This document shows positions 6,225-29,183 of a stretch of 29,656 bases of DNA, piece by piece. The notes below the pieces were generated by a model. That model did not search any database and had not been told where the DNA came from. It saw nothing but the letters and a program-made list of their open reading frames with translations. Position 1 is the first letter of the stretch, and each line of letters begins with the position of its first letter. The stretch is from a virus. Both the position numbers and the translations under genes were made by a program. The stretch spans positions 1-29,656 of IMG/VR virus record IMGVR_UViG_3300042452_000646; one strand, given 5' to 3'.

Positions 6225-8182
6225 TGCTGGAGCAACGCCTATCTAAGATCAACTTTATCGGAGAAGATGGATTTCACTGGTTCATCGGACAGGTAACAGC
6301 TGATCCTAGTTGGCGAGAATTTAGCACAAAATATGGTTATCGAGCAAAAGTTAGGATCTTAGGTCGTCATCCAGCATCTAATGAAGTTCCTGATAGTGAA
6401 TTACCTTGGGCACATTTTCTAGTACCACCAAATCTTGGTGCTGGTAAAAACTTTGGTGGTACTAGTTTTGGTTTGCAAGGTGGAGAAACTGTTCTAGGAT
6501 TTTTCCTAGACGGTGATGATATGCAGCAACCCATCATTTTGGGTGCATTGTTTAGTGGTGAGGCAGAAAAGAACCTTGTTGCTTGGCAGAAATCTGTAGA
6601 TAAAGGCACAAGTGGATTTCTACCAATTGATTTTAACAGACAATTAAAATATTCAACTGCAGTAAGACCTGCTACTGGAGGATCTCCAACAGGGAATGGA
6701 GTTCCTGGTGGTGGTAAAACTGCAGACGGTAAAGAAAGTCTTCAAGGAAAGCAAAATAACGAAGTAAAGAAAAAGATTGTAGGACGCGCTAAAAAATGTA
6801 AAGGTGGTAAGGGATTTTTGTGGGAAGTTTCAAGAGCCCTAGCATCTTTTATTGAAGTAACTAGAGATCTGATCAATTATCAACAAGGATATATTGATCC
6901 TATTTTAGGACAAATTGCTGACATTGGATCTTTAATTGGACAAACATCAGACTTGATTGCAGGAGCATTTTCTCAGTTAATTCGATTGGCGAGAAAGTAT
7001 ATGTTCCAAAAAATTTATAATGGTGTAAAAGATTTATTGAATTTCCTTGTTCCAGACAGTCTTTTGAAAGATATTGCAATTAAAAAATCGATGGATACCA
7101 TCTTTTGTTTAATTGAAAATATTATAAAGGGACTTAAAAAATTCATTAGTGATTTCTTGCTACAGATGCTCGGGAAAATTATCAATATTCCACTTTGTGC
7201 TGCGGAACAATTCATCGGTGGACTTATTTCATCCATTGGTAATGAAATTCAAGAAGCAATCGGACCAGCAATGGATGCTATCCAGCAAGTCATTGGATCT
7301 ATTGGTTCGTTTACGGGATATATGGCTCAAGCAATTAATTATGCTCAAATTGGATTGAATTTCTTAAAGTGTGAAGGTGAAATTTGTGAACCAACACCAT
7401 ACAACTGGGCAATAAATTTTGGACCAACACCACAAGAAGTTGCAGATTTTAGAAGAACAATAAGTCTTTCTGGTAGAATTAATAATCTTAAAAAAGATGT
7501 TTCAAATACTCTTGAAGGATGGTTTCCTAAAGATGAAGTTGGTGATGAAGTTGTTGATGGTTTGGTTAAAGAATGTGATCCATATAGTCTTGTTTGTGGT
7601 CCACCAGGAGTTCTTATCTTCGGTGGCGGTGGTGCTGGTGCTGCAGCAAGAGCAGTTGTTAATAGTCTAGGACAGGTTGTTGGCGTGAATATGCTTGATG
7701 TTGGATTTGCTTATTCTGGAAGACCATTTGTTCAGTTTGTTGATGCTTGTGATAATGGATATGGTGCTACTGGACAGGCAATCGTAGAAAATGGTCAAAT
7801 AACCAATATTGTCATGCTTGAAACTGGTGGTGGATACATTCCAACATCAGAAATTACTCCAGACAATCAGGGTGAAGATGTTGTTGGACAACTCAATAGT
7901 GTTCAAATCGTTAACACTGGTATCGGTTATTCGGAAGATGATATGATTGAAAGCGAATGTGGTGTGCTTAAACCAGTTTTAGATGGTGAGGGTAGAATTA
8001 TTGGTGCTAATATTATTTCATCTGAACTTGGATGTACAACTCTTCCAGACTTGTCAATAAATAGTGCCACTGGTGTAGGAGCGATTATTAGACCTGTTAT
8101 GAAGTATGTTAGAAGAAGTGAAGTTAACGTAAGTGTTCCACCAGAAAAAGTTATTCGTGTTGTAGATTGTGTAAGTAAATGA
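6224..8182 (+). CDS. gp5: Baseplate hub OB-fold protein, gp5-like, lacking the lysozyme domain
   Basis: Residues about 12-118 match the gp5 OB-fold: GFHWFIGQVTADPSWREFST, then YRAKVRILGRHP, ELPWAHFLVPP, GGETVLGFFLDG and QQPIILGALF. This domain joins the gp27 ring to the spike. T4 gp5 then has a lysozyme and a beta-helix. Here residues about 195-390 are instead long hydrophobic/amphipathic helices. Residues about 467-610 hold Gly-rich repeats with G-x-G-Y or G-x-x-Y signatures (LDVGFAYSGRPFVQF, ETGGGYIPTSEI, NTGIGYSEDD). The spike seems to be the next gene. At 652 residues it is longer than T4 gp5 (575) but of different make-up. Confidence 0.8.
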   Translation: MLEQRLSKINFIGEDGFHWFIGQVTADPSWREFSTKYGYRAKVRILGRHPASNEVPDSELPWAHFLVPPNLGAGKNFGGTSFGLQGGETVLGFFLDGDDMQQPIILGALFSGEAEKNLVAWQKSVDKGTSGFLPIDFNRQLKYSTAVRPATGGSPTGNGVPGGGKTADGKESLQGKQNNEVKKKIVGRAKKCKGGKGFLWEVSRALASFIEVTRDLINYQQGYIDPILGQIADIGSLIGQTSDLIAGAFSQLIRLARKYMFQKIYNGVKDLLNFLVPDSLLKDIAIKKSMDTIFCLIENIIKGLKKFISDFLLQMLGKIINIPLCAAEQFIGGLISSIGNEIQEAIGPAMDAIQQVIGSIGSFTGYMAQAINYAQIGLNFLKCEGEICEPTPYNWAINFGPTPQEVADFRRTISLSGRINNLKKDVSNTLEGWFPKDEVGDEVVDGLVKECDPYSLVCGPPGVLIFGGGGAGAAARAVVNSLGQVVGVNMLDVGFAYSGRPFVQFVDACDNGYGATGQAIVENGQITNIVMLETGGGYIPTSEITPDNQGEDVVGQLNSVQIVNTGIGYSEDDMIESECGVLKPVLDGEGRIIGANIISSELGCTTLPDLSINSATGVGAIIRPVMKYVRRSEVNVSVPPEKVIRVVDCVSK

Positions 8183-9933: not shown

Positions 9934-10008
9934 GGGACCGTTGCTTATTGGTTAAAGCCGTCGCCTTATAAGCGGCAGAACCGAGTTCAATTCTCGGCGG
10001 TCCTACCA
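9934..10008 (+). tRNA. tRNA-Ile(UAU)
   Basis: Full cloverleaf: acceptor GGGACCG/CGGTCCT (first pair G-U), D-stem GCTT/AAGC with a GG-containing loop, anticodon stem GTCGC/GCGGC with loop CTTATAA (anticodon TAT), T-stem CCGAG/CTCGG with loop TTCAATT, discriminator A and encoded CCA. It reads AUA codons, which are common in this AT-rich phage. Most bacteria read AUA with a lysidine-modified CAU tRNA, so a true UAU anticodon is less usual. Confidence 0.93.
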
Positions 10009-10009
10009 T

Positions 10010-10094
10010 GGGAGCGTGGTGAAACTGGTAAACACAGCAGACTTAAAATCTGCTGGGCATAACGCCCTTGTCGGTTCGATTCCGACCGTTCCTA
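10010..10094 (+). tRNA. tRNA-Leu(UAA)
   Basis: One base after the tRNA-Ile. Acceptor GGGAGCG/CGTTCCT with two G-U pairs, D-stem GTG/CAC, anticodon stem GCAGA/TCTGC with loop CTTAAAA (anticodon TAA), long class II variable arm with stem GGGC/GCCC, T-stem GTCGG/CCGAC with loop TTCGATT, discriminator A. The CCA end is not encoded, unlike its neighbour. It reads UUA. Confidence 0.93.
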
Positions 10095-10097
10095 CTT

Positions 10098-10674: not shown

Positions 10675-11397
10675 TTATTCTTCAAAATATCTTTGATTAT
10701 CAGGATTTTCAAGAGCATTTATCAAAATGCTCTTTTTTTGTACCTGAGCATCTAATTGAGACTTAGCAGTTTCATATCCATATTTTTGTAATTCATAAGA
10801 TGCTCTTGCTTCTTTAATCACATTAATTTGAACAATAACAGTATCTCTTTCTGCTCGATAAGTAGTCAAACTGTTTGTAAGTGTTGTAATAGAATTAGAA
10901 TATCCAACACAAGCACCAACAATCGGTGTTGCAAATCCAACATAAGTTCCAATAGAAACTTGTGTTACTGCATTATAAGTTCCTACACCAGCATTACTTG
11001 TAGAAAGTTCTTGAGTGCTTTTTGAGAATGGATTTGGTGAAGTAAATGACCAGGAATGAAGAATAACACGATCCTCAACAACGTCTACAACTGCAGCAGA
11101 AGTTGTTCCACATCCGATAACGTTTGCCTGTTGTCCTAAGACTAGGATTTGGTTTTGAATAGTTTTAATTTGATTATTGATTTCTAAAATTCTAGTATCC
11201 AATCCTTTTGTTGCTGGATCAAATCTATTGATCTGTTCGTTTATTCCTTCAATAACATATTCTGGATCTTCATCGTCTGCAGTTCTTATTTCAATACCAG
11301 AAATAACCTGATCAAGTTGTTCTTTTTGCTTGTTATCTTGAGCAACTGATTTTTTATATGATGAAATCAAATATTCTGTCTTTGGACCACTTGACAT
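10675..11397 (-). CDS. Coiled-coil late protein, function unknown
   Basis: The 240-residue product has coiled-coil helices at both ends (about residues 12-85 and 185-230) around a beta-rich, Ser/Thr/Gly-rich centre (about 95-175). This helix-head-helix layout would suit a fibrous or whisker-like virion part, but no family is recognised. It is the only minus-strand gene in the structural region. An exact TATAAATA on the minus strand at 11436-11429 lies about 30 bases before its ATG, so it is probably a late gene. Its stop meets the stop of the convergent gene directly. Confidence 0.65.
   Translation of the reverse strand: MSSGPKTEYLISSYKKSVAQDNKQKEQLDQVISGIEIRTADDEDPEYVIEGINEQINRFDPATKGLDTRILEINNQIKTIQNQILVLGQQANVIGCGTTSAAVVDVVEDRVILHSWSFTSPNPFSKSTQELSTSNAGVGTYNAVTQVSIGTYVGFATPIVGACVGYSNSITTLTNSLTTYRAERDTVIVQINVIKEARASYELQKYGYETAKSQLDAQVQKKSILINALENPDNQRYFEE
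10712..10739 (+). terminator. Intrinsic terminator inside the convergent gene
   Basis: AGAGCATTT (10712-10720), loop ATCA, AAATGCTCT (10725-10733), then six more T. It is a perfect 9-bp stem in the plus direction, about 38 bases after the stop of the 181-residue gene. It lies within the last codons of the minus-strand coiled-coil gene. Confidence 0.8.
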
Positions 11398-11399
11398 AG

Positions 11400-11407
11400 T
11401 ATAAATA
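11400..11407 (+). promoter_or_regulatory. T4-type late promoter TATAAATA
   Basis: Exact match to the T4 late promoter -10 consensus, 33 bases before the start of the 1747-residue fibre gene. It faces an identical minus-strand box at 11429-11436. Confidence 0.7.
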
Positions 11408-23575: not shown

Positions 23576-23583
23576 CATAAATA
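23576..23583 (+). promoter_or_regulatory. Late promoter-like box CATAAATA
   Basis: Same octamer as at 19674-19681. It is followed by AAGGAG at 23588-23593, before the ATG at 23605. Confidence 0.5.
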
Positions 23584-24196: not shown

Positions 24197-24598
24197 ATGT
24201 CACAGTACTACACAATTAGAGATGCTCGTAACCCAAGATGGGCTAATCCTGAGCATAATGCAATCGATCTAGAAGTTGATTTTACTGATCTTCCTGAGGA
24301 ATATCTTCCATATACTGCAACACCAACTGATGTTGTAGAGCACTCAAGAGAACTTTATAGCAGAGCTCTTGATGGAGAATTTGGTGAGATCGCTGAATAT
24401 AATGGTCCTCTAATGTGGACACCAGTTAATAAAACAACGATTGAAGTTTCTACTGAAGGTCTAGTTCAACTTCTACTTGAAAAGGGTATCCTTACTGACG
24501 AAGAAGTTGATACAATTCTTGTTGAAGAAACAGTAACTGTTGGTTTCGCAAGAACCACCATTGATGGTTCAAACCCTGTTTATAATGGTGTTTACTGA
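24197..24598 (+). CDS. Hypothetical fibre-cluster protein, possible assembly factor
   Basis: The 133-residue acidic product contrasts with the Thr/Gly-rich fibres around it. An N-terminal SQYYTIRDARNPRWANPEHN leads to FTDLPEEYLPYTATPTDVVE, a helix with ELYSRALDGEFGEIAEY, and an acidic C-terminus. The phrase ATPTDVVEHSRELYSRALDG resembles small proteins that sit after phage fibre genes, some of which act as fibre chaperones; this link is tentative. It has a good ribosome binding site (AAGGAG at 24180-24185) and is the last gene before the terminator. Confidence 0.6.
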   Translation: MSQYYTIRDARNPRWANPEHNAIDLEVDFTDLPEEYLPYTATPTDVVEHSRELYSRALDGEFGEIAEYNGPLMWTPVNKTTIEVSTEGLVQLLLEKGILTDEEVDTILVEETVTVGFARTTIDGSNPVYNGVY

Positions 24599-24648
24599 TT
24601 CATTAAGTGTTCGCTGATCAATCTGATAAGTGGCACCATTCAATCTGT

Positions 24649-24683
24649 AGGTATCTGGGGTTATCCTCAGATACCTCTTTTTT
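24649..24683 (+). terminator. Strong intrinsic terminator closing the fibre operon
   Basis: AGGTATCTGGGG (24649-24660) pairs with CCTCAGATACCT (24665-24676) through 12 bp including one G-T, around the loop TTAT. It is followed by C and six T. It lies 50 bases after the stop of the 133-residue gene. Confidence 0.88.
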
Positions 24684-24735
24684 ATTTGGTGTAATTCCTG
24701 GTGTTTGTCGAGAAGTTATCGGCAGACGTGATTTT

Positions 24736-25593
24736 ATGTACTCACAACCTGAGTGTTTTAACTCAAAGTTGGTGTACTCTTTTAGTGAGCATCATCACAT
24801 CAAAATAAACAAAAGCAAATCAGTTCGTTCATATTATGGTTCTTGCCCATTCTTATGGGACCTTGGTATAAGTGCTACTAAAAAAGAATACAATCCAAAA
24901 GGATCATTGTTCTTCCTTCCAAGAGACGATCAAGTAACAATTCGTAAACCAGAATGGAAATCTGTTCAGGATACAATTGATGCTGCACCCAAACCAATCA
25001 CATTTTTACTACCTTGGAGACAATGTGATATATGGCAACATTGGGATAAATTATCTCTACCAGAAGATTGTAACTTTGTACAAATGTCTGATAGAGAAAC
25101 TAGACAGTTTACTTTATCGGAACTATTTCTTACTCACGAAAACATTTATATTCCTTGGCCAGGCACAGATGTTTATTATGCAGAATTTTTAGAAAAAAAT
25201 ATTATTATCTACGACGATATAAAAAAATATAGAACTAAAACTGTAGAAGAAGGTGGTAAACAAATACAGACAAAGGTTCTTAGATTTTTAAAATGGGGAT
25301 ATGATTACTTAAATGATACTCAAAAAGAATATTTTCACTGGACAGAAAACTGGAATGATATTTCTTTAGAAGATAGAAAATTTCTTACCTCAAAAATGTT
25401 AGGTCTTGATGTACTAAAATCTCCCAAAGAATTATTTGATGATATGAAATCAAATCAATTTTTACAAAATGAACTAGAATTTAAGTATAACGAAGACTAC
25501 CAAAAATCTTATGAATGGTTGAAAACCAAATCAGAAAAATTCGTTAATTCTAGTTGTAGCAATGGATGTGCTACTATATTTGCTAAACTTTAA
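24736..25593 (+). CDS. Glycosyltransferase-like protein, 5' end uncertain
   Basis: From the ATG at 24736 the product is 285 residues. The frame is open upstream to a GTG at 24607, but that would run through the terminator hairpin, so I prefer the ATG or a non-ATG start between 24685 and 24736. Features include VYSFSEHHHIKINKSKSVRS, a YYGSCPFLWDLGI segment, GSLFFLPRDDQ, ITFLLPWRQCDIW and YIPWPGTDVYYAEFLEKNII. The pattern is that of a GT-B-type surface-polysaccharide transferase, where the last phrase would be in the donor-binding half. The N-terminus looks short for that fold. Its stop overlaps the stop of the convergent phosphatase gene, with no terminator between. Confidence 0.5.
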   Translation: MYSQPECFNSKLVYSFSEHHHIKINKSKSVRSYYGSCPFLWDLGISATKKEYNPKGSLFFLPRDDQVTIRKPEWKSVQDTIDAAPKPITFLLPWRQCDIWQHWDKLSLPEDCNFVQMSDRETRQFTLSELFLTHENIYIPWPGTDVYYAEFLEKNIIIYDDIKKYRTKTVEEGGKQIQTKVLRFLKWGYDYLNDTQKEYFHWTENWNDISLEDRKFLTSKMLGLDVLKSPKELFDDMKSNQFLQNELEFKYNEDYQKSYEWLKTKSEKFVNSSCSNGCATIFAKL

Positions 25594-25943
25594 AATTGAC
25601 GAAAAAAGTCTTTATCACTCCACGCCTTATCATCAACATAATATGCAGCACGAGGTTTACCAAAGAATAGATGGTGATATTGAACACCCCATTCTTTTAG
25701 TTGGTTTTCAGTAAATTCTCGCATCGCTTTATCTGCTTCTGCTTGATTGTTGTCATTACCAAGCATACCACGAGCAGTCATCAAATAAATTTTAGCACCT
25801 TTATCGTAGAGACGATTAACAACACTAATTCGTGAAAGAATTGGTTGAGCGTTCTCAAGATTACAATTTTCTTCTGTACACAAAGTACCATCAATATCAA
25901 AGCAGTAAATTTCTGCCTTGTCATCAATATCAGGAACAATCAT
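25590..25943 (-). CDS. HAD-family sugar-phosphate phosphatase
   Basis: This 117-residue small HAD protein has motif I FDIDGT (D16, D18), motif II LMTARG (T56), the conserved lysine in FGKPRA (K96) and motif III VDDKAW (D104, D105). All catalytic positions are present. The size and lack of a large cap resemble capsule-type and KdsC-type phosphatases. Its start overlaps the stop of the SIS gene (ATGA), so the three minus-strand genes form one operon. With KdsB- and isomerase-like partners it could dephosphorylate a sugar intermediate such as an ulosonate phosphate; the exact substrate is unknown. Confidence 0.75.
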   Translation of the reverse strand: MIVPDIDDKAEIYCFDIDGTLCTEENCNLENAQPILSRISVVNRLYDKGAKIYLMTARGMLGNDNNQAEADKAMREFTENQLKEWGVQYHHLFFGKPRAAYYVDDKAWSDKDFFRQF

Positions 25944-26395
25944 GGTAATTTAGGAAGAACAATACCATTATACTCCATCAGAGCATATAATGTCCAGATG
26001 GCGTTGACTTCAAATTCGTGATACTTTTCAACATCAATCACAATAGTCTCAATCACTCTGTGTTTTTGTGGGGCGATCAATAACGTAGGCATAGCATACT
26101 CTACATTTTCTAGAGCAGTTACCAAAGGTGATTGTATCCTGCAACTAATGCCGATGATAAGATCTGCTCCTTGACAAGCATAGTCAATCCATTTCTCATG
26201 CCATCCACCATCAACATCAAATGCTGTGATTGATACACTATCAGGAGCAAAGCAAAATTTACCTGTATGGCGATAAATGTCAGATGCCATATGCTGAGCA
26301 ACTGAAAGATTACCACCATTACCAATCAAAGCAATTTTAGATGCTCTGCTGAACATCTTTGCTGCTTGTTCAAGACTGCTGTTTTGAAAGTTCAT
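25940..26395 (-). CDS. SIS-domain sugar-phosphate isomerase (GmhA/KdsD-like)
   Basis: I chose the ATG at 26395 over a TTG at 26401; the product is 151 residues. Residues 21-29 are IALIGNGGN, followed by SVAQHMASDIYRH, the phosphosugar-binding loop and helix of the GmhA-type SIS family. The usual GNGGS is GNGGN here. The middle (DLIIGISCRIQSPLVTALE) resembles the second SIS motif. GmhA is about 190 residues, so this copy is short and lacks any CBS domain as found in KdsD. It overlaps the kdsB-like gene by 26 bases and the HAD gene by four. Confidence 0.72.
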   Translation of the reverse strand: MNFQNSSLEQAAKMFSRASKIALIGNGGNLSVAQHMASDIYRHTGKFCFAPDSVSITAFDVDGGWHEKWIDYACQGADLIIGISCRIQSPLVTALENVEYAMPTLLIAPQKHRVIETIVIDVEKYHEFEVNAIWTLYALMEYNGIVLPKLP

Positions 26396-27086
26396 GTTCA
26401 ATTTCTTGAATGTGATGTTGTCTATCTACTGCTCTTATTTTACCACATTTTAGATCATATGGCACTACTTCATATTTGCCACAAAAACCAATCGTATCCA
26501 ATCCTTTCCAATACTCAACAAATCCCATATCAAGGTTAGGAAAGTCACAGATTACGTTTTGTCTATAGAAATATAATCCTAACTGCACAGTAATATTTTT
26601 ACACACCACATCAGGTGTTCGTTGCATATGAACAACTCTGCCATTGTTTTCAATCATCTTAACAACATCTTCGTCATCAAGTTCATCAGGTTCTAGTTGT
26701 CTTGATGCTTGAACCATATCGTAATCGTTATCAACACCAAACTCAATGATGCGATCAATCCATGCAGGATCTGTTAACGGTTCGTCTCCTTGCAAATTAA
26801 AAATATAATCACTTTCCAAAGTTTGAGATACTTCTGCCACGCGATGAGTGCAGGTATAGTGTTCACTTGTGAGTTGGGATTGGTATCCATTGATTTCACA
26901 TAATCGTTTGATGATTTCGTCTTCTGTAGCAATGATGATCTGATCGAAATACTTAGATTGTTTTGCAATATCTGCCACACGTATCACCATCTCACGTCCA
27001 AGTATCCTAGCAAGTGGTTTACCAGGAAACCGACTAGATTTCATTCGTGCTGGGATAACACAAGCAATTTTTTTTCTATTATACAT
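26370..27086 (-). CDS. kdsB: KdsB-like CMP-sugar synthetase (3-deoxy-manno-octulosonate cytidylyltransferase family)
   Basis: The 238-residue product (KdsB is about 250) joins a 3-deoxy-ulosonic acid to CMP. The nucleotide-binding loop is VIPARMKSSRFPGKPL at residues 10-25, with IIATED at 51-56, NLQGDEPLTDP at 97-107 and the C-terminal phrase KGLDTIGF. The usual H-x-SGT-[DE]-R motif is altered to HYTCTHR at 76-82, so the sugar may differ from Kdo. It is the first gene of the minus-strand operon. Only 25 bases separate it from the divergent radical SAM gene, and no clear promoter lies between. No Kdo-8-P synthase gene is in the window; the host or another part of the genome would need to supply it. 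Confidence 0.75.
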   Translation of the reverse strand: MYNRKKIACVIPARMKSSRFPGKPLARILGREMVIRVADIAKQSKYFDQIIIATEDEIIKRLCEINGYQSQLTSEHYTCTHRVAEVSQTLESDYIFNLQGDEPLTDPAWIDRIIEFGVDNDYDMVQASRQLEPDELDDEDVVKMIENNGRVVHMQRTPDVVCKNITVQLGLYFYRQNVICDFPNLDMGFVEYWKGLDTIGFCGKYEVVPYDLKCGKIRAVDRQHHIQEIEHELSKQQS

Positions 27087-27111
27087 AATAAATTAGTGAT
27101 CTTCGATATAT

Positions 27112-28143
27112 ATGCCAAATAATAATCTATGGGATATTAAACTTGAAATTGGTAACTATTGCAATTTAAAGTGTCCACATTGTGCAAGAAATTTTGTGGG
27201 TGATTATAATTTAAATAGTAAGCACGTTTCATTAAACACAATTAAAAAATGGTTACCAAAATCATTTATTTTATTAAATACAAATAAATTAATAAGATTT
27301 ACTGGAGTTACTGTAGAACCCTCGTTAAATCCAGACTTTTTAAATATTATTAATTATTTTTTAACACATAAATGTTTAATTGAAGTAGAAACTAATGGTT
27401 CTACAAACAATGAAAACTGGTGGTATGAATTGGGGAAAACTGGCGTAAAATGCTATTTTTCTCCAGATTCATTAAAACCAAATAACAATTTATATCGAAT
27501 TAATTCTAACACAGAAAAGGTGATTACAAATATGAAATCATTTATTTCTGGTGGAGGAACTGCTATATGGAAATATTTGCCCTTTAAACATAATGAAGAT
27601 GAATATGATGTACAAAAAACTTTAGCAAAAAAAATTGGTGCAAAATTTGCTGTTGTTCAACCTGGATGGTTTGATGAAAATCGTGTAGGAGAAGTTATGA
27701 AACCATCTAAACATTTTCCAAATCCCAAAACATTAACTACTTCTAAAACTAATAGTAAAAATCCAGAAAATTATTGTATGGTTGTTGGTAAAGGTGGTAA
27801 GTTACTTGAAATTAGTCCAGATGGAATAATCTATCCCTGTTGTTTTGTTGCAAAACCATTGTTTTCCATCTATGCCCCATTTTTAAATGGTGGAGATCAA
27901 AATCCACATATAGATAATGAAAGAGTAAAAACTGATAATTTATATAAAGTTTTTGTAGAAGACATGCTTCCATTAATTGAAAATCAAGGGGGGATAAAAA
28001 CATTATCATTATATCACAATAATATTAAAGATATATTAAAAACTGATATTTTTGTTTCTTCGTTAAAAAAATCTTGGGAAAAACCAAACAGATTTTGTAC
28101 TGAATTGTGTCGTGCTAGAAAATATATAATAACAGAGACATAA
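27112..28143 (+). CDS. Radical SAM/SPASM-like protein, copy 1
   Basis: The 343-residue product has the radical SAM motif C17-x3-C21-x2-C24 within GNYCNLKCPHCARNF. A partial TIM-barrel pattern follows (IEVETNGSTNNENWWYELGK and CYFSPDSLKPNN). C-terminal cysteines in IIYPCCFVAKP and FCTELCRARK suggest a SPASM-type auxiliary cluster. Such enzymes modify peptides or sugars using an S-adenosylmethionine-derived radical. It starts 25 bases from the divergent kdsB-like gene, lacks a clear ribosome binding site and is followed after five bases by a homologue. The DNA looks more AT-rich than the structural genes. Substrate unknown. Confidence 0.75.
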   Translation: MPNNNLWDIKLEIGNYCNLKCPHCARNFVGDYNLNSKHVSLNTIKKWLPKSFILLNTNKLIRFTGVTVEPSLNPDFLNIINYFLTHKCLIEVETNGSTNNENWWYELGKTGVKCYFSPDSLKPNNNLYRINSNTEKVITNMKSFISGGGTAIWKYLPFKHNEDEYDVQKTLAKKIGAKFAVVQPGWFDENRVGEVMKPSKHFPNPKTLTTSKTNSKNPENYCMVVGKGGKLLEISPDGIIYPCCFVAKPLFSIYAPFLNGGDQNPHIDNERVKTDNLYKVFVEDMLPLIENQGGIKTLSLYHNNIKDILKTDIFVSSLKKSWEKPNRFCTELCRARKYIITET

Positions 28144-28148
28144 TAAAC

Positions 28149-29177
28149 ATGGAAAATCCTAAATGGTTCTTAAAACTTGATATAAGTAATCATTGCAATT
28201 TAAGATGTCCTCATTGTGCAAGAAATTTTATAAAAAATGATTATAAATTAAATTCTAGATATGTTTCATTAGAAAAGATTAAACGTTGGATACCAAAATC
28301 ATTTGTTATTCTTAATACAAGTAAAACTGTATTGTTTAGTGGAGCATTAGCCGAACCTACTTTAAATTCAGAACTTATAGAAATTGTAGAATATTTTTTA
28401 AAATTTAAATGTAAAATTTCTATTGATAGTAATGGATCTACAAATAATGAAGATTGGTGGTATAAGTTAGGAAAAACAAAGGTAAAATGTTATTTTTCAC
28501 CAGATTCTTTAGTGCCAAATAATAACCAATATCGTATTAATTCAAATACAGAAAAAGTAATTTCTAATATGAAAGCATTTATTTCTGGTGGAGGAATAGC
28601 TTCATGGAAATATTTGCCCTTTAAACATAATGAAGATGAATATGATGCACAAAAAACTTTAGCAAAAAAAATTGGTGCCGAATTTGGTGTTGTTCAACCT
28701 TCGTGGTTTGATGCTAATGCTGAAGGAGAAACAATGGTTCCATCAAAATATTTTCCAAATTCAAAAAAGATAGTGAACAGCAATCTAACAAATAATCCAG
28801 AAGATTATTGTGTGCTTATTGGTAAGGCTGGAAGTATTATTGAAGTAACTCCAGACGGTGTTATATATCCCTGTTGTTTTGCTGCAAAACCATTTTTTTC
28901 AGTGTATGCACCATTTTTCAATAATGAAGAAACTAAACCTTTAATTAGAGAAGATTTAATGAAATCTAGCACAAAATATAAGTATTTTGTTGAAGATATA
29001 CTTCCTTTGATTGAAACCCAGGGTGGAATAAAAACATTATCATTAAATTTTTACACAATCACAGATATATTAAATACAGACTTATTTAAAAGAAGTTTAA
29101 AATCATCTTGGGAAAGTGGAAATAATTTTTGCACCAAAGAATGCAGATCTAGAGATCATATTTTATATAAAATTTAA
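28149..29177 (+). CDS. Radical SAM/SPASM-like protein, copy 2
   Basis: The 342-residue product is a tandem paralogue of the preceding gene, with motif C16-x3-C20-x2-C23 (SNHCNLRCPHCARNF). Matching C-terminal cysteines occur in VIYPCCFAAKP and FCTKECRSRD. The two proteins align along their full length with no large gap. The best conserved block is ISGGG, followed by WKYLPFKHNEDEYD and QKTLAKKIGA. That both copies keep all cluster cysteines suggests both are active. They may act as a pair or on different substrates. It ends the accessory island. Confidence 0.75.
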   Translation: MENPKWFLKLDISNHCNLRCPHCARNFIKNDYKLNSRYVSLEKIKRWIPKSFVILNTSKTVLFSGALAEPTLNSELIEIVEYFLKFKCKISIDSNGSTNNEDWWYKLGKTKVKCYFSPDSLVPNNNQYRINSNTEKVISNMKAFISGGGIASWKYLPFKHNEDEYDAQKTLAKKIGAEFGVVQPSWFDANAEGETMVPSKYFPNSKKIVNSNLTNNPEDYCVLIGKAGSIIEVTPDGVIYPCCFAAKPFFSVYAPFFNNEETKPLIREDLMKSSTKYKYFVEDILPLIETQGGIKTLSLNFYTITDILNTDLFKRSLKSSWESGNNFCTKECRSRDHILYKI

Positions 29178-29183
29178 AACATA

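Follow-up and report, generated by a model that had tools for sequence, protein, structure and literature searches.

The virus record IMGVR_UViG_3300042452_000646, a stretch of 29,656 bases analysed here at its full length (the window), runs on its plus strand through tail tube, baseplate and many tail-fibre genes before reaching a region of sugar genes. What would a phage make with such genes, and to what would it attach the product? Cyanophages shape ocean primary production and the roles of their many sugar genes have mostly been guessed. The reading that we favour, with moderate confidence, is that four of the genes form a cyanomyovirus glycan module, placed in the tail-fibre (host-recognition) region, which would transfer a cytidine monophosphate (CMP)-activated and probably non-Kdo (3-deoxy-D-manno-octulosonic acid) sugar to the virion or to a host glycan. 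A first-pass annotation had described an accessory island that could make, activate, chemically edit and transfer an acidic sugar; we keep the accessory set and its potential to make, activate and transfer a sugar, and drop the editing step, which had been assigned to a pair of radical SAM enzymes.

Linkage and conservation of the four genes

The conserved unit consists of a transferase-like gene, termed GTx here, facing an operon on the opposite strand that encodes HAD, SIS and KdsB-like proteins. The frames of this operon overlap on the minus strand, as had been described before. The genes concerned are as follows:

24197 to 24598, plus strand: tail-fibre or tail-fibre-assembly-like gene, adjoining the module upstream (phrog_1795, 1.7e-16)
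24607 to 25593, plus strand: GTx, orphan transferase-like protein of 328 residues with a GTG start (confident AF2 model, predicted GT-B-like fold)
25590 to 25943, minus strand: HAD phosphatase-like protein of 117 residues (phrog_1238, 9e-25; TIGR01689, 3e-8, under the cut-off)
25940 to 26401, minus strand: SIS isomerase-like protein of GmhA/DiaA type, 153 residues, likely start ATG at 26395 (PDB profiles)
26370 to 27086, minus strand: KdsB-like cytidylyltransferase of 238 residues (CTP_transf_3, 6e-28; profile against PDB KdsB, 1e-29)

Comparison of the window's proteins with related loci by tblastn gave 47 distinct contigs, two weak matches (L081 and L082, 39% over 50 residues) being left out of the counts. 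The KdsB-like gene was present in 42 of these contigs, all of which also carried GTx and SIS, with HAD in 41; in the five that lacked it no more than about 1.1 kb of sequence follows the last gene of the module before the contig ends. The tail gene, among whose relatives the names 'tail-fibre' and 'tail fiber assembly' occur, lies beside GTx in all 47, and within the available sequence the order of tail gene or genes, GTx and then the opposed HAD-SIS-KdsB set is kept in 45. The two exceptions are L005, where KdsB, SIS and HAD are flipped onto the GTx strand, and L072, where GTx is inverted and HAD was not found. The same four-gene unit occurs in the single-cell record MH319720. Purifying selection acts on each of the four genes: of 16 pairs between the window and its relatives, 14 gave a dN/dS value (nonsynonymous to synonymous rates), in the range 0.06 to 0.20; of the other two, one had saturated dS and one a codon problem. 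SIS and HAD form a single open frame in 16 of the 41 distinct SIS frames, 15 of which were aligned. The homologues are thus linked as a unit and not scattered, and the proposed accessory island stands for these four genes; the radical SAM pair lies outside it.

The module-bearing relatives can be read as cyanomyoviruses because genes for Photo_RC (psbA/psbD-type photosystem reaction-centre) proteins are found in 7 of 15 module-related records, including records of 171,943 and 192,351 bases, and because the window's baseplate-hub protein, for which Marine virus AG-345-D19 is the top match (51%), has Synechococcus phages next (about 30%). Given its strict linkage, the module represents a defined set of four predicted enzymes that is open to expression and assay; among them are a transferase-like protein of an orphan family and a KdsB-like enzyme in which conserved residues are altered. 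The openly licensed full-text literature yielded no description of the four-gene set or of the hairpin discussed below, an absence that is weak evidence.

Some relatives carry additional genes. Between one and five tandem paralogues of 260 to 310 residues, without a clear Pfam family, lie mostly between SIS and KdsB in L023, L026, L028, L033, L060, L069, L072-L074, L078 and L079; 26 of these proteins were aligned, and a confident model has the sulfotransferase Stf0 as its nearest fold, although weakly (Z 8.7). A UDP-glucose dehydrogenase is added in L070, L076 and L077. These insertions may be further tools for acidic glycans.

GTx and the acceptor of the sugar

The first-pass annotation had included a transferase-like gene beginning at 24736. 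That gene does belong to the module, but its start lies near 24607 (GTG), the codons upstream of 24736 being conserved as protein. The AF2 model of GTx is confident (mean pLDDT 92.6), and in VIA-align its top match was the CMP-bound capsule-synthesis multienzyme 8a0c (Z 10.1, root-mean-square deviation (rmsd) 4.2 over 239 residues), followed by TagF (Z 9.2) and TarL (Z 8.3); these Z scores are above the usual chance range, though not by much. Across the three the likeness spans rmsd values of 4.2 to 4.4 over 221 to 242 residues. GTx differs from them in being one small protein with no detectable sequence relation: sequence homology to TagF or Capsule_synth was considered and rejected, an hhalign comparison with six frames from three PF04464 loci gave a probability below 1%, and PDB sequences held no match. 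A pattern scan of one genome each for 84,980 species gave 14 pattern matches, none of which was confirmed as a bacterial relative of GTx. The label 'transferase' is therefore without a sequence-family match and has the predicted GT-B-like fold in its favour; on the model, GTx would be a GT-B-like protein nearest to polymerases that use CMP or CDP (cytidine diphosphate), and by sequence it forms an orphan family.

The acceptor may be a tail fibre or other virion protein of the same late operon, or a surface glycan of the host. We have a slight preference for the former because tail genes precede GTx in all but a few contigs, and its transcription is relevant here. The heptamer ATAAATA, which we take to be the cyanophage late promoter, stands 28 to 41 bases ahead of six plus-strand genes of the window (11441, 16716, 19716, 21098, 23605 and 29425, five of them of tail type), the copies starting at 11401, 16684, 19675, 21064, 23577 and 29392; the minus strand of the window has a single copy. 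The genes at 24197 and 24607 have no such motif ahead of them in the window, and transcription of GTx therefore probably begins at the motif given here:

23577 to 23583, plus strand: late-promoter-like ATAAATA, the last before GTx (motif scan)

GTx would then be transcribed last, behind the tail genes, and this position, together with the lack of a late-type promoter of its own, favours a virion acceptor a little. If it is true that the tail fibres are glycosylated, this would represent a new layer of host recognition. A scan for sigma-70-like promoters (36 found against 29.7 expected) was uninformative.

The strongest competing explanation is that the module remodels the host envelope to block superinfection, the tail-fibre neighbourhood being only the usual variable region; we consider this a serious contender, if somewhat short of an even chance. 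T4-like cyano- and pelagimyophages have a hypervariable cluster for host recognition that contains tail fibres, glycosyltransferases and radical SAM genes, and those who described it read it as serving O-chain modification of the host (PMC7029224). The UDP-glucose dehydrogenase and the tandem proteins with a sulfotransferase-like fold that some relatives add would fit such a role. However, remodelling of the host surface should come early, and in 45 of 47 contigs GTx keeps its position after tail genes; nor does it have, in the window, a late-type promoter of its own.

The cytidylyltransferase and the identity of the sugar

We aligned 34 phage with 72 bacterial sequences to compare the KdsB-like protein with bacterial KdsB (CMP-Kdo synthetase, CTP_transf_3). 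The phage protein shares the fold family, the QGDEP motif and the catalytic residue set of KdsB (Lys, two Asp and Arg; here K23, D101, D221, R14 and R19). These five, together with R82 and Q99, are invariant in the 34 phage sequences and 97 to 100% conserved in the bacterial ones. In the KdsB of Aquifex the activating Mg (Mg-A) is bound by D95 and D219, and K19 is conserved (PMC3149649). These three appear to correspond to D101, D221 and K23 of the phage protein.

At bacterially conserved positions the phage proteins carry G79 to C, D81 to H, T126 to Q, H168 to Q and LEQLR to LDTIG changes, and the replacement residues are themselves conserved across the 34 phage sequences. Bacterial [ST]GTDR, which is TCTHR in the phage protein, the His and LEQLR are thus not kept, and some of these positions presumably line the sugar site. 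The pattern [ST]G[TS][DES]R was seen in 67 of 82 aligned bacterial KdsB segments, the other 15 being without a recognisable motif under this pattern, and the TCTHR form was seen in none of the 82. Among the 80 bacterial relatives listed, identity in the best segment is at most 38%, and the protein scores under every curated KdsB cut-off (TIGR00466, 90.8 against 155.2 bits; PRK13368, 147.8 against 255 bits). The HYTCTHR motif that had first raised a doubt about plain Kdo is present and conserved in relatives, and the doubt is upheld by departures from bacterial KdsB at conserved positions.

The SIS protein matches PDB profiles of DiaA and GmhA at 3e-5 to 2e-4 (DiaA 3e-5, GmhA 1e-4) and reaches 15.9 bits against the GmhA model TIGR00441, below the cut-off of 209.45. 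It shares the GNGG-AQH signature, so that the GNGGN motif picked out by the first-pass annotation is present, and conserved in relatives, and it has Asp where GmhA has a Glu that we take to be catalytic. It differs from GmhA/DiaA in a shorter N-terminus, in a [TS]CRxxS in place of the STSGNS-like stretch of GmhA and in being often fused to HAD. The HAD protein scores 33.6 bits against the EcbF/BcbF phosphatase model TIGR01689 (cut-off 162). HAD superfamily motifs consist of DxD, Thr, Lys and DD residues, and D16, D18, T56, K96, D104 and D105 are invariant in all five aligned sequences. It is homologous to proteins of T4-like phages labelled 'phosphoheptose isomerase' (phrog_1238, 387 records), a label that is misleading for what looks like a HAD phosphatase.

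From family chemistry and the fusion, we infer the order SIS, HAD, cytidylyltransferase. SIS would isomerise a sugar phosphate and HAD would take the phosphate off, steps that are probably consecutive because one polypeptide carries both domains in many relatives. The KdsB-like enzyme would then couple the free sugar to CMP from cytidine triphosphate (CTP) by the two-metal chemistry of KdsB, and GTx, a GT-B-like enzyme whose sequence family is new, would pass it to the acceptor.

Several results weigh against this reading. GTx found no match in Pfam (E 0.1), PHROGs or NCBIfam, all Foldseek E-values with its model exceeded 1e-3, hhalign against TagF- and KpsC/S-type proteins gave nothing, and UDP-GlcNAc 2-epimerases also reach a Z of about 8 with the model in VIA-align. 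The SIS protein is short and its family match weak. A late-promoter motif precedes the KdsB-like gene in 2 of 31 cases against a control mean of 1.3, which is no enrichment. Enzymes making a 2-keto acid were not found either: PF00793 (DAHP/Kdo8P-synthase type) was absent from all 15 related records, and KdsA (TIGR01362) and NeuB from the seven searched for each. The KdsB-like enzyme would consequently need a host-made ulosonic acid or another kind of substrate. The KdsA-like gene that the first-pass annotation had suggested looking for elsewhere was thus not found in the related records, Kdo8P synthase and NeuB are rejected as missing partners, and the 'acidic' nature of the sugar continues to be a supposition.

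An alternative that we regard as improbable is that the set supplies CMP-Kdo with the help of the host's Kdo-8-P synthase and that the KdsB-like protein has changed by drift. KdsB is the nearest named family, and the cyanophage S-SCSM2R has annotated KdsB and KdsA genes side by side. Against this stand the scores below every cut-off and the replacement of positions that show little or no variation among 72 bacterial sequences by residues conserved in 34 phage sequences, which is not what drift would leave. The SIS protein is also of GmhA and not KdsD type, judged by a motif that we assume to define the latter. The lipopolysaccharide (LPS) of marine Synechococcus WH8102 and CC9311 is reported to be without Kdo and without heptose, whereas some other cyanobacteria have Kdo (PMC4515613). 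Taken together, the altered conserved residues, the lack of PF00793, KdsA and NeuB in the related records and the reported Kdo-free LPS of these marine strains suggest that the sugar is probably not Kdo.

Comparison with other cyanophages places the module in context. The sugar cassettes of the T4-like cyanophages S-CAM3, S-SM2 and S-T4 have a homologous phrog_1238 HAD with sugar genes, and that of S-CAM3 sits near a tail fibre gene; they differ in having another nucleotidyltransferase (annotated as ADP-heptose synthase or cytidyltransferase-related) and a 'cysteine dioxygenase' where the present module has KdsB-like, SIS and GTx. The KdsB homologue of S-SCSM2R (25%) is accompanied by KdsA, and the stretch shown has no tail-gene, SIS or HAD annotation. 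The module is a variation on known phage glycan cassettes, its unusual parts being the orphan transferase family and a terminator-like element embedded in coding sequence.

The hairpin in GTx and the radical SAM insertion

The element embedded in GTx begins 43 bases into the gene and has the GC-containing stem-loop and T run of an intrinsic terminator:

24649 to 24686, plus strand: terminator-like hairpin within the coding part of GTx (12-bp stem at 24649 to 24676 with a 4-base loop, then CTTTTTTATT)

The GTx codons in which it sits (RYLGLSSDTSFLF) are conserved, as is the protein sequence upstream of them. A stem of at least 9 with a T run was found in 35 of 39 distinct GTx starts, across which the mean folding z was -3.3 (300 synonymous recodings each). 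These tests left out L070, which has no KWHH start; L001 was left out of the folding alignment, L040 out of alignment A6 and L015, with a codon deletion, out of alignment A11. With L005 and L072 kept apart, 36 rows pair on average 10.69 of the 12 stem columns, compared with 7.51 (maximum 8.36) after synonymous recoding.

Could the hairpin arise simply as a by-product, through constraint on the peptide (RYLGLSxDTSF) and codon bias? The amino acids do fix several of the stem columns, and swapping codons among rows with the same amino acid still leaves 10.03 paired (maximum 10.33). However, none of 1000 such shuffles reached the observed value. Changes on both sides are seen in 8 of 14 pairs and in 43 cells, whereas shuffles give 18.2 such cells and none of 500 reaches 43; related rows can inflate this control. 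We therefore give the by-product explanation little credence. Since the GTx start is conserved as protein and, by synonymous covariation, also as hairpin, the DNA serves both. The two weakest folding z values of the 39 belong to the two rearranged loci, L005 (-1.06) and L072 (-0.99), although these are two cases only and, on the other side of the balance, L072 pairs 8 of 12 by the fixed-column count, in which two ordinary rows tie with it. In these loci a stop at the hairpin would silence co-oriented genes or would no longer face the tail operon.

By its form the hairpin looks like a transcription stop signal, one that probably limits read-through into GTx and shields the convergent operon. 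A ribosome closely trailing RNA polymerase can prevent terminator hairpins (PMC5021804), and we speculate that read-through may be controlled by translation. Such an element may illustrate one way for a compact phage genome to set how strongly a gene that follows a late operon is expressed. A bolder version of the module reading can be framed, which we consider possible but doubtful: an undescribed, aldolase-free route may convert a sugar phosphate of central metabolism through SIS, HAD and the KdsB-like enzyme to a CMP-sugar, which a new glycosyltransferase family would place on the phage's own tail fibres, GTx being gated by the in-codon terminator and expressed only by read-through, perhaps ribosome-aided.

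The radical SAM pair lies on the far side of the KdsB-like gene:

27093 to 29183, no strand: insertion of 2.1 kb relative to L006, carrying the radical SAM pair (flank alignment)
27112 to 28143, plus strand: radical SAM protein 1, with CxxxCxxC and C-terminal Cys residues (PF04055, 33.3 bits, cut-off 29.5)
28149 to 29177, plus strand: radical SAM protein 2, tandem paralogue at 63% (PF04055, 41.3 bits)

Both proteins exceed the PF04055 cut-off with CxxxCxxC present, and the copies, 63% identical to each other, show a dN/dS of 0.39. The window aligns with L006 (KdsB-like protein 93% identical) up to 27092 and again from 29184, positions that are only 30 bases apart in L006, and the pair is absent from relatives with KdsB-like proteins 93% and 92% identical. 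Its GC content is 27% compared with 37% for the HAD-SIS-KdsB stretch. Radical SAM-like frames occur in 4 of 47 contigs and adjoin KdsB only in a near-identical one; in two of the others they are kilobases off at 43 to 47% identity and in the third there is a weak 26% match. Because it is an insertion absent from close relatives, the pair is outside the module and says nothing about the sugar, and the 'chemical editing' once attributed to it falls away. That the whole island, radical SAM pair included, is a single pathway is scarcely credible given the clean boundaries of the insertion and the rarity and distance of such frames elsewhere, even though the first radical SAM gene and the KdsB-like gene are divergent neighbours only 25 bp apart. 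The site is a likely insertion hotspot. In L004 it is filled (about 7480-7990) by some 0.5 kb of different DNA.

Elsewhere in the window, a minus-strand frame of 240 residues without a convincing family match lies amid the plus-strand tail genes (10675-11397). An Rfam scan of the window found nothing beyond two neighbouring tRNA genes on the plus strand (9934-10095), for Ile (TAT anticodon as called) and Leu (TAA).

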